Below, piece after piece: positions 27,418-28,711 of a DNA stretch of 43,357 nt. The stretch is from Clostridia bacterium. Its GTDB lineage: Bacteria; Bacillota; Clostridia; Oscillospirales; CAG-272. Under the pieces are notes generated by a model. It did not search any database, had not been told where the DNA came from, and saw only the letters and a program-made list of their open reading frames with translations. The translations under genes were made by a program, and so were the position numbers. The stretch lies in the NCBI GenBank assembly GCA_017631855.1, contig JAGBSP010000025.1:1-43357 (forward strand), written 5' to 3'. The number at the start of each line of letters is the position of its first letter. Position 1 is the stretch's first letter.

Positions 27418-27457
27418 ATCCGTCCTCCAAAAACGAAAAAATGACGTTATTTTATAT

Positions 27458-27486
27458 ATTATAATATAAAACAAAAAATTTTTCAA
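27458..27486 (-). promoter_or_regulatory. sigma-A promoter of the ABC exporter operon
   Basis: On the minus strand, TTGAAA (27481-27486) and TATAAT (27458-27463) are 17 nt apart. It diverges from the tRNA-Val promoter about 20 bp away. Confidence 0.78.
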
Positions 27487-27504
27487 CCTTTTTTCAAAAA
27501 ACTA

Positions 27505-27533
27505 TTGCATTTTGAAAAAAAGTGTGATATAAT
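27505..27533 (+). promoter_or_regulatory. sigma-A promoter of tRNA-Val
   Basis: TTGCAT (27505-27510) and TATAAT (27528-27533) have a 17-nt spacer. The -10 ends 12 nt before the mature tRNA. I see no other vegetative promoter before the four-helix-bundle gene. Confidence 0.8.
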
Positions 27534-27545
27534 AGTCACCGTTGC

Positions 27546-27622
27546 GGAGGCATAGCTCAGCTGGTTAGAGTGCATGCTTGACATGCATGAGGTCACTGGT
27601 TCGATTCCAGTTGTCTCCACCA
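27546..27622 (+). tRNA. tRNA-Val(GAC)
   Basis: This 77-nt cloverleaf has acceptor GGAGGCA pairing with TGTCTCC (one G-U), D arm GCTC/GAGT, and anticodon arm CATGC-TTGACAT-GCATG with anticodon GAC, which reads GUC and GUU. The T arm is ACTGG-TTCGATT-CCAGT, with discriminator A and encoded CCA. Confidence 0.95.
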
Positions 27623-27658
27623 AAAAATAAGCAACCCAGTCGGGTTGCTTATTTTTTA
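27623..27658 (+). terminator. tRNA-Val terminator
   Basis: AAAAATAAGCAACCC (27623-27637) pairs perfectly with GGGTTGCTTATTTTT (27642-27656) around AGTC, ending in a six-T run. It abuts the hairpin array, and its trailing ATC (27658-27660) matches the end of the array linkers. Confidence 0.9.
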
Positions 27659-27659
27659 T

Positions 27660-27859
27660 CCAATCCGAAGGATTGGTATGTAATCAACGGGCAAAGCCCG
27701 TTGGATGTAATCTGCGCCTCGCGCAGTATGGCATCACGCGTTAGCGTGTATTCTCCCGCCTTCGGATTGATCACATACACGGCGTTGCCGTGATTACATA
27801 CGCGACTTCGTCGCAATGACATTCCGCAACAAGTTGCGGATTTCATACACCCCTTCGGG
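27660..27859 (+). repeat. Tandem array of about nine short hairpins with conserved, mirror-inverted linkers
   Basis: Stems and loops in order: CCAATCC-GAA-GGATTGG (27660-27676); AACGGGC-AAA-GCCCGTT (27686-27702); CTGCGC-CTC-GCGCAG (27712-27726); CACGC-GTTA-GCGTG (27735-27748); a weak CCG-CCTT-CGG (27756-27765); CACGGC-GTT-GCCGTG (27778-27792); GCGAC-TTC-GTCGC (27802-27814); TCCGCAAC-AA-GTTGCGGA (27823-27840); a weak CCC-TTC-GGG (27851-27859). The period is 21-28 nt. Linkers are TATGTAATC, GGATGTAATC and TATGGCATC in the left half, and GATCACATA, GATTACATA and AATGACATT, the reverse complement, in the right half. Stems are unrelated in sequence, so the architecture and not the primary sequence is what is conserved. 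It fills the gap between tRNA-Val and a four-helix-bundle gene. Confidence 0.85.
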
Positions 27860-27886
27860 CTGATTGGGACGCGAAAGGAACAAACT

Positions 27887-28240
27887 ATGGCAAAAAATCT
27901 TCTACTTGAATATTCCGAAGAACTTGCGACTAAATGTGAATTGTTGTGCAAATCCATAAGCGGTAACGCCAATACCCTTTTTCAGCTTCGTAAATCCTCG
28001 TCAAGCGTATTTGCTAATATTACCGAAGCTCAATATCCGCAAAGTCTTGCCGATATGCTTTCTAAATTCAAGATTGCAAGAAAAGAGTGTGCTGAAACAG
28101 AAAGTTGGCTAAAATTACTGTATAATACAAAAGTGATTGACGAAGCAAATTTCAAAACTTACCGCAACCTCTGTGGAAGAATACAGAGAATGCTCATTTC
28201 ATCGTGCATCACAATAGAAAAGAAAATTGATAATAAATAA
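27887..28240 (+). CDS. Four-helix-bundle protein (S23 / Avd-like)
   Basis: This 117-residue basic protein matches, by length and pattern (KCELLCKSISGNANTLFQLR, SSSVFANITEAQ, KIARKECAETESWLKLL, LISSCITIEKK), the four-helix-bundle family encoded in 23S rRNA intervening sequences. That family includes Avd, the accessory protein that binds reverse transcriptase and RNA in diversity-generating retroelements. Orphan copies are common and their function is unknown. Here neither an rRNA gene nor a reverse transcriptase is present; instead a structured hairpin array lies immediately upstream, which may be its RNA or DNA partner. AAAGGA (27874-27879) lies 7 nt before ATG 27887. No promoter of its own is visible. 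Confidence 0.85.
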   Translation: MAKNLLLEYSEELATKCELLCKSISGNANTLFQLRKSSSSVFANITEAQYPQSLADMLSKFKIARKECAETESWLKLLYNTKVIDEANFKTYRNLCGRIQRMLISSCITIEKKIDNK

Positions 28241-28278
28241 AAACAACCAATACTTGATGGGTATTCTCGAATTATGAT

Positions 28279-28307
28279 TTCAAATCAAGAAATAAGTATG
28301 GTATAAT
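28279..28307 (+). promoter_or_regulatory. Probable promoter of the XRE regulator
   Basis: TATAAT (28302-28307) has a weak TTCAAA (28279-28284) 17 nt upstream. It lies 29 nt before the regulator's ATG. Confidence 0.55.
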
Positions 28308-28336
28308 ATAATAAAAAACACCAAGGAGATTACATT

Positions 28337-28711
28337 ATGGCTACTTTTTCTGAAATATTCAAAGCATTACGCAAAGATAAACAACTGACACAGGAGCAGA
28401 TTGCTGAAATTTTTGGAGTTTCTCCGCAAGCGATCAGTCGTTGGGAAAATGCAGTCTCTTATCCGGATATCACACAACTACCCAATATAGCAGCATATTT
28501 TGAAACGACTGTTGATGATTTACTTGGCATAAAGAAAACCGTTAAAAAGCAAAAAATAATATATTTTCAATTCAGATGGCAAGAGAATGCCAATGCAATT
28601 AATGAATATTTAGAGGACGGGTGGATGGTTAAAGAAATGCACACACATCCTCTTACAGACGGACAGCATCCCGAAGGTGTGGTACTAATAGAGAAAACAA
28701 TATTAAATTAA
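28337..28711 (+). CDS. XRE-family regulator with a small C-terminal domain
   Basis: This 124-residue protein has an N-terminal Cro/CI helix-turn-helix (LTQEQIAEIFGVSPQAISRW, about residues 17-36, then YPDITQLPNIAAYFETTVDDLLG). A short basic linker leads to a C-terminal segment of about 50 residues (FQFRWQENANAINEYLEDGW, then GVVLIEKTIL) that looks like a small beta-alpha-beta domain of the DUF4177 sort, perhaps sensing a ligand. AAGGAG precedes ATG 28337 by about 9 nt. It is AT-rich compared with its neighbours, as an accessory cassette might be. A 34-codon ORF follows at once. Target unknown. Confidence 0.85.
   Translation: MATFSEIFKALRKDKQLTQEQIAEIFGVSPQAISRWENAVSYPDITQLPNIAAYFETTVDDLLGIKKTVKKQKIIYFQFRWQENANAINEYLEDGWMVKEMHTHPLTDGQHPEGVVLIEKTILN

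Follow-up and report, generated by a model that had tools for sequence, protein, structure and literature searches.

The described elements closest to the locus analysed here are the 23S rRNA intervening sequences (IVSs). In Coxiella, the available text of PMC4990558 describes the IVS as a selfish element that carries an open reading frame (ORF) for S23p, has tandem heptamers ahead of that ORF and is bounded by terminal inverted repeats that form a 28-bp stem; the same text states that the function and origin of IVSs are unclear. The element found in the 43,357-nt stretch of DNA under study (the window) shares with the IVS a PF05635/S23p ORF and, in our reading, the character of a small selfish element. 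However, it lies outside rRNA, behind a tRNA terminator; inverted words are present, but all stand on the 5ʹ side of the gene, in the order S-L-Sʹ-Lʹ; mini-hairpins separate the words; and copies without a gene exist. IVSs are also cut out of the precursor RNA by RNase III. Because an IVS is defined by its location in rRNA, the window element is classed here as an IVS variant and not as an IVS.

REP and BIME elements with RAYT are likewise small, inverted extragenic palindromes, but their stems are constant, whereas those described here vary (135 distinct hairpins in 42 arrays). Unlike in a CRISPR array, the variable units are palindromic and the repeats invert at the centre; the original prediction, which set constant words with variable paired stems apart from CRISPR, REP and BIME, holds on these points. 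The SDR elements of Nostoc, reportedly described by Elhai et al. in 2008, are said to be hairpin repeats of 21–27 nt with compensatory changes, often located inside heptameric tandem repeats. By that description, they form one-sequence families, whereas neighbouring stems in the window are unrelated. The heptamer tandem repeats of cyanobacteria are named STRR. Repeats of the heptamer TAACTGA are intergenic 7-nt tandem words found in Cyanobacteria and Bacteroidetes (PMC4679880), and the terms helix bundle, S23 and intervening sequence are absent from the available part of that paper. The likeness to such heptamer repeats lies in a period of 7 around PF05635 genes. Unlike in STRR/TAACTGA repeats, the words in the window are not head-to-tail but are separated by variable hairpins; head-to-tail words occur in plasmid relatives. 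Neither hairpin arrays like these nor PF05635 genes outside rRNA linked to heptamer or hairpin arrays were found in the open-access literature.

The array occupies window positions 27658–27873 on the + strand, between the terminator of a tRNA-Val(GAC) gene and a PF05635 gene. The tRNA gene (27546–27622, + strand; ARAGORN and Rfam) and its terminator hairpin (27622–27657, + strand; a 16-bp perfect stem) are flanks rather than parts of the element, and the array abuts the 3ʹ foot of the terminator. Between 27660 and 27859 there are seven perfect hairpins (stem of at least 5 bp, loop of 3–4 nt), compared with a mean of 0.46 and a maximum of 4 in 2000 dinucleotide shuffles, which bears out the predicted hairpin array; hairpin density here is the highest of the whole window. 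The fold energy of the array has a z-score of −5.1 as RNA and −6.2 as DNA, with equally low values in 0 of 200 shuffles each. Hairpins start at 27660, 27685, 27712, 27735, (27759), 27778, 27802, 27824 and 27850, 19–27 nt apart.

All parts of the array, in the order S, L, Sʹ, Lʹ, are given here on the + strand. The S segment (27658–27676), with hairpin 1 (CCAATCC GAA GGATTGG), is complementary to 27759–27771. It is followed by the left half (27677–27735), in which the words TATGTAATC (27677), GATGTAATC (27704) and TATGGCATC (27727) alternate with hairpins at 27685–27703 and 27712–27726, and then by hairpin 4 (27735–27748; CACGC GTTA GCGTG, with a GNNA loop). At the centre, Sʹ (CCTTCGGATTGAT, 27759–27771) is the reverse complement of the start (ATCCAATCCGAAGG, 27658–27671) save for one base. 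The right half (27769–27848) contains the inverted words GATCACATAC (27769), ATTACATAC (27793), AATGACATTC (27815) and ATTTCATAC (27840), with hairpins at 27778–27792, 27802–27814 and 27824–27839. A last, weak hairpin (CCCCTTCGGG, 27850–27859), which has a strong counterpart in relatives (CACGCCTTCGGCGTG), ends 27 nt ahead of a gene for a 117-aa protein, and the array closes with the 3ʹ end motif GATTGGGACGCG. The two units originally rated as weak are thus the centre and this last hairpin. The linker words switch strand midway, from TATGTAATC on the left to GATTACATAC on the right, so that the linker pattern first proposed, YATGTNATY, describes the left half, and the right half carries its reverse complement. 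This strand flip, the complementarity of start and centre, and the tie between the array and the neighbouring IVP gene had all gone unrecognized. In the window, only two tRNAs exceed the Rfam gathering score and the array matches no Rfam family, in agreement with the statement that no named element has this layout.

The gene behind the array (27887–28240, + strand) encodes a four-helix-bundle protein of 117 aa that matches Pfam PF05635 (23S rRNA-intervening sequence protein; E 2.8e-18) and NCBIfam TIGR02436 (four helix bundle). Its AlphaFold2 model (pLDDT 93.8) was matched by Foldseek to 2rld of the S23 family (TM 0.85) and to 2gsc, as well as to Avd of diversity-generating retroelements (DGRs; 4dwl, TM 0.79) and the DGR ribonucleoprotein 8ub7, with TM 0.78–0.79 for these two. 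The likeness of PF05635 to Avd is also stated in the available part of PMC10053308, and the L068 homologue gives a weak HMM match to Avd (E 3e-4, below the cut-off). PF05635 is present in 23 of 30 genomes of the genus; the genome that contains the window has several such proteins, each with its own word (the window, L082 and L095). Among four neighbouring proteins scanned, there are 0 transposases. A Cro/C1-type HTH gene follows the four-helix gene directly (28337–28711) and has its own promoter-like site at 28279–28307.

The first outcome set to refute the original prediction, a lack of other loci with the same linker and stem grammar, did not occur: the grammar recurs in many genomes. A search of 59 genomes, the window's own included, gave matches in 12. 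In its own genome a second array lies behind another tRNA gene (L002) and a partial array adjoins one with GTGAAATA/TATTTCAC linkers (L003). Searching the genus for a TATATCATC array gave matches in 19 of its 30 genomes, and one genome (G010) had 11 matches. From the window subfamily, 42 distinct arrays were extracted. Between arrays the linkers of both halves change jointly (TATGTAATC/GATTACATAC, TATATCATC/GATGATATAC, TATGGAATC/GATTCCATAC), as do start and centre. Moreover, most PF05635 genes read in the genus have upstream arrays of the same grammar with other words, including AATGATG, GTGATG, GTGAAGT, ATGAAGC, GTGAAAT, GTTATGA, TGAATTG and GTGATAT.

The association of arrays with PF05635 genes is evident beyond the genus. 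A PF05635 scan of named genomes yielded 576 confirmed loci, and of the best 80, 79 are titled Clostridia or a subgroup, many from the ruminant gut. Together with 43 of the 56 PF05635 rows of the genus, and after loci with less than 300 nt upstream were removed, these best 80 gave 114 Clostridia loci. An inverted word was scored when an exact 7-mer occurred at least twice on the left and its reverse complement at least twice on the right within 450 nt. Upstream of the gene, 97 of the 114 loci have inverted words, 98 have at least five perfect hairpins and 110 have either, compared with 0, 4 and 4 downstream and 1, 0 and 1 in block-shuffled sequence; the upstream hairpin count can take in tRNA and terminator hairpins that are absent from the downstream control, to which the inverted-word count is not equally exposed. 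Removal of three near-duplicates left 111 loci, many still related, with corresponding counts of 94, 95 and 107 upstream and 0, 4 and 4 of 102 downstream. The arrays also favour one kind of target on one side: of 98 loci, 66 have a tRNA gene (16 isotypes) on the same strand no more than 650 nt upstream and 1 has one on the opposite strand, and over that distance downstream none of the 114 has a tRNA gene. In the window subfamily, 38 arrays come with enough sequence to tell; the gene is present at 9 and missing at 29. Genome G018 has 11 matches to TATATCATC arrays, but both PF05635 genes detected in it (L069, L090) belong with different words, so that these TATATCATC arrays are orphan and perhaps non-autonomous.

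Words and proteins segregate together. On a tree of the protein with 88 of 107 rows labelled, in which words were merged into classes by hand and L115 was left out, the word class changes 18 times; the minimum is 14, and shuffled labels give a mean of 56 and a lowest value of 49 in 300 trials. Labels set by hand include L062, L015 and L079–L081, not all of which are in the tree. Start and centre likewise belong together. An S-Sʹ reverse-complement match of at least 8 nt is present in 77 of 96 arrays (32 of 94 with a narrower start window), as against 34 of 1920 shuffled centres; with starts and centres swapped, it is found in 126 of 1294 pairs from other-word loci and 99 of 127 within a word. 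A match of at least 7 nt is absent in 18 of the 96. Sʹ could have arisen as another copy templated on S, or it could act as a guide-like loop and pair with the 5ʹ side.

The array is probably the 5ʹ portion of a small selfish element that is related to the 23S rRNA IVSs but extra-ribosomal. Its stems vary in sequence yet are nearly perfect. In the 42 arrays, the 135 hairpins contain 876 pairs; of the 35 transition mismatches, 20 are G-T and 15 A-C; stems were counted up to the first other mismatch, so only transition mismatches enter these figures. Read blindly as palindromes, 42 right-half cells have 187 of 211 pairs Watson-Crick, 8 G-T, 4 A-C and 12 other. Among cells differing at one or two pairs, 25 differences are two-sided and 8 one-sided, so the second outcome set to refute the original prediction, stems that change without compensatory pairing, did not occur either. 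Additionally, the cassettes CGCAACAAGTTGCG, AATGCTTCGCATT and ACGCCTTCGGCGT reappear in different arrays and positions, which suggests shuffling.

The loops follow a strand rule. On the strand with the TCA word, 93 of 177 3-nt loops are GNA and 11 are TNC, 49 of 107 4-nt loops are GNNA (29 GNRA, 20 GNYA) and 12 are TNNC, and the closing pair is C-G in 236 of 284 loops. On the + strand, GNA/GNNA and TNC/TNNC loops number 55:6 in halves where the word is TCA (64 other loops) and 13:89 where it is TGA (54 other; Fisher 7e-24), in the 89 of 97 loci with a word that remain after 8 with neither TCA nor TGA were left out; loops of neither class make up 118 of 281. In the arrays of the 42-array subfamily that have a recognised centre, left halves give 18:1, with 28 other loops, and right halves 0:24, with 18 others. 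Within the window array, left hairpins 1 (GAA) and 4 (GTTA) and one to two on the right, including 27802–27814 (TTC), follow the rule, and the remaining clear hairpins have loops of neither class. TCA words are in the left half in some families and in the right half in others, for which the model gives no account. GNA and GNNA loops on G-C stems are described as extraordinarily stable, nuclease-resistant DNA mini-hairpins in the available part of PMC4686876. As a single transcript would present one of the two halves in the other polarity, the strand rule points to single-stranded DNA in which each half is used on the strand opposite to that of the other, like the two ends of an element.

The same data bear on a structured non-coding RNA or 5ʹ leader that is read from the tRNA side and bound by the four-helix protein for self-regulation. 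The low fold energy as RNA (z −5.1), the 29 GNRA loops among 49 GNNA loops, the window's lack of a promoter-like site between array and gene, and the membership of the relative Avd in a ribonucleoprotein (8ub7, by its title) would all suit such a leader. However, selection on RNA should favour G-U over A-C on the transcribed strand and does not show: the ratio is 20:15 in the subfamily and 121:106 in all families, with 126:103 in control sequence. Half of every array has the loop type of the other strand, 20 of the 49 GNNA loops are GNYA, several other loci have promoter-like sequence between array and gene (read by eye), and gene-less copies are common. An RNA leader is therefore unlikely, and the RNA function implied by the original prediction is disfavoured by the wobble counts and by the opposite strands of the loop types in the two halves.

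The words could instead be operators or partition sites in double-stranded DNA, recognized by the four-helix protein or by some other DNA-binding protein, with the hairpins as incidental palindromic spacers. Words that are constant within a protein clade and co-vary with it, at a spacing of 19–27 nt, are as such sites would have them. Yet palindromes with GNA loops closed by C-G, and a strand rule on top, are unexpected of spacers, and arrays made only of heptamers have no spacers at all; we consider this explanation quite improbable.

The hairpin directly before the array appears to have a separate origin at tRNA sites. At 65 of 70 tRNA loci and at 22 of the 32 remaining ones, the array follows a hairpin of at least 10 pairs. 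That the element makes this hairpin at tRNA sites was considered and rejected because tRNAs scored as array-less also have long terminators (a stem of at least 12 in 21 of 24, in a list that still contains arrays missed by the criterion, e.g., L106, L111, L027 and L029); at these sites it looks like an ordinary terminator. At six protein-gene sites, namely five similar methyltransferase 3ʹ ends (L093, L078, L116, L084, L086) and one GMP synthase (L112), the array is preceded by a hairpin in which coding sequence forms the left arm and an inverted copy of it the right; Pfam was run for L093 and L116 (PF05958, uracil-methyltransferase family) and for L112. These hairpins are near-perfect in four cases, L093, L078 and L116 among them, and imperfect in two (L084 and L086, by eye). 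Hairpins with such a coding arm would be expected from snap-back synthesis. The other GMP synthase locus, L080, in which the hairpin comes after the stop codon, does not fit.

A hairpin cluster that terminates transcription or insulates the tRNA gene would account for the position directly behind tRNA terminators, and hairpin clusters have been proposed as terminators (available part of PMC8355165). This explanation is very unlikely: a long hairpin and a T-run already follow the tRNA, a scan of 27450–28350 found 0 terminator-like sites (weak evidence, as it passed over the tRNA hairpin too), heptamer forms exist without hairpins, and some sites are located at protein-gene 3ʹ ends, between operon genes or in rRNA.

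Heptamer forms link the arrays to elements on plasmids and in rRNA. PF05635 proteins were found in 36 plasmid records, 27 of which were fetched; hosts include Nostoc, Anabaena, Planktothrix, Treponema, Bernardetia and Chlorohelix. Within 150 nt of the gene, exact period-7 runs of at least 12 nt occur upstream in 12 and downstream in 12 of the 27 loci, compared with 0 inside the gene, 0 far upstream and 1 far downstream. Only lags 7 and 14 are seen, one lag-8 case aside. Runs of at least 7 nt on one side are present in 21 of 27 and absent in 6, the control figures above referring to the other threshold. Where both sides have runs, the upstream and downstream words are usually reverse complements, as in L207 (TAATTCG.. 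/ ..CGAATTA) and L219 (ACAGGTG / CACCTGT); L202 has same-sense copies as well. In a draw from the phylum (199 genomes searched, 35 with matches, 29 loci read), lag-7 runs of at least 7 nt flank the gene on either side in 18 of 29 loci and are absent in 11, and other lags (4–6, 8–13) give 0–4; such lag-7 runs lie inside the gene in 3 of 29 and far downstream in 3 of 29, and runs of at least 12 nt number 4 upstream, 5 downstream and 1 inside. Two PF05635 genes of this draw (L237, L245) lie inside LSU rRNA and are bounded on either side by inverted heptamers, which in L237 are GAGGTTAGATGTTAGAGGTTAGAAGTTGGA and a near complement of it, so these IVSs share the plan of the element. At L089, L090 and L100, tRNA-Arg terminators are followed directly by TTTTTCA/TTCTTCA-type sequence, which in L089 is a run of heptamers without hairpins.

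The presence of copies at many unrelated sites supports mobility of the putative element. At the cas2-cas1 junction, the gene and its heptamers are in place in two cyanobacterial plasmids, from Anabaena cylindrica (L202) and Nostoc sp. TCL26-01 (L209), whereas in two Nostoc plasmids (L224, L225) cas2 and cas1 are adjacent and the element is absent. This comparison rests on annotation and reading of the sequences, the scripted alignment being messy. Because filled and empty sites differ in the cas1 3ʹ end, the comparison speaks for presence and absence rather than for a clean insertion with exact ends or a target duplication.

A DGR- or group II-type retroelement with the four-helix protein as an Avd-like partner of a reverse transcriptase would fit the matches to Avd 4dwl and 8ub7, but it is highly improbable given that PF00078 reverse transcriptases occur in only 7 of the 30 genomes in the genus (5 of the 23 that have PF05635 and 2 of the 7 that lack it) and that the window's own genome, 85.5% complete, has 0 matches.

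Under the favoured explanation, an extra-ribosomal relative of IVSs, the element consists of an inverted array of a word of about 7–9 nt and one four-helix-bundle gene of the IVP/S23/Avd fold, and it sits directly behind stem-loops at gene 3ʹ ends, mostly tRNA terminators. When single-stranded, during replication or as a copying intermediate, the TCA-word strand of each half would form a succession of mini-hairpins, typically C(GNA)G. The words that space these hairpins would be bound by the cognate four-helix protein, and the hairpins would protect and space the words in turn. The protein-DNA complex would then protect the two ends and present them for copying to a new stem-loop. Stems could vary freely and stay paired if one arm is templated on the other, through snap-back or template-switch synthesis, and recombination between words held in common would shuffle the cassettes. 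Arrays that lack the gene would be non-autonomous copies. Hairpins that form in single-stranded DNA and arm-to-arm copying free of function would both fit the sequence. Other observations that count against this explanation are the many loops of neither class, the differing cas1 3ʹ ends, the arrays with no S-Sʹ match of at least 7 nt, the varying half in which TCA words lie, the mismatch of arrays and genes in G018, and the plasmid and phylum loci without a period-7 run.

More tentatively, the elements may form a distinct class of mobile DNA, with one gene and with ends that are inverted word arrays, moved or maintained as single-stranded DNA by a word-reading four-helix protein and renewing its stems by snap-back; its members would include the 23S IVSs and at least some heptamer repeats from Cyanobacteria, Bacteroidota and other groups. 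The ends would be telomere-like, each with the same word in the same strand polarity. If true, this would give ʻorphanʼ four-helix proteins a function and heptamer repeats an origin, and a mobile element in which no transposase, integrase or reverse transcriptase can be recognised would attract wide interest. The arrays connect three questions that look separate: where 23S IVSs come from and how they move, what the ʻfour helix bundle proteinʼ (TIGR02436) does, and how heptamer repeats arose. As protein clades go with their own words, binding, word swapping and presence or absence of the element can be assayed directly.

Further observations concern the arrangement and neighbours of the copies. 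Entire arrays are tandem-duplicated at L015, L077 and L088, at L015 with part of a terminator-like sequence between the copies. A role in anti-phage defence was considered and set aside, as three of the proteins have no PADLOC match, though some plasmid copies lie in cas or restriction operons. Four-helix genes with heptamers are located between cas2 and cas1 and between cas6 and cas4 (L202, L209 and L219, the last from Anabaena sp. 90), and this location may explain why the 23S rRNA IVP is among the domains listed in a CRISPR survey (available part of PMC10910872). Other plasmid four-helix genes (L197, L205, L206, L215) are part of restriction-like operons, each placed between two genes annotated as hsdS-type and HsdR, DUF1156 and Swt1 HEPN, or helicase and N-6 DNA methylase.
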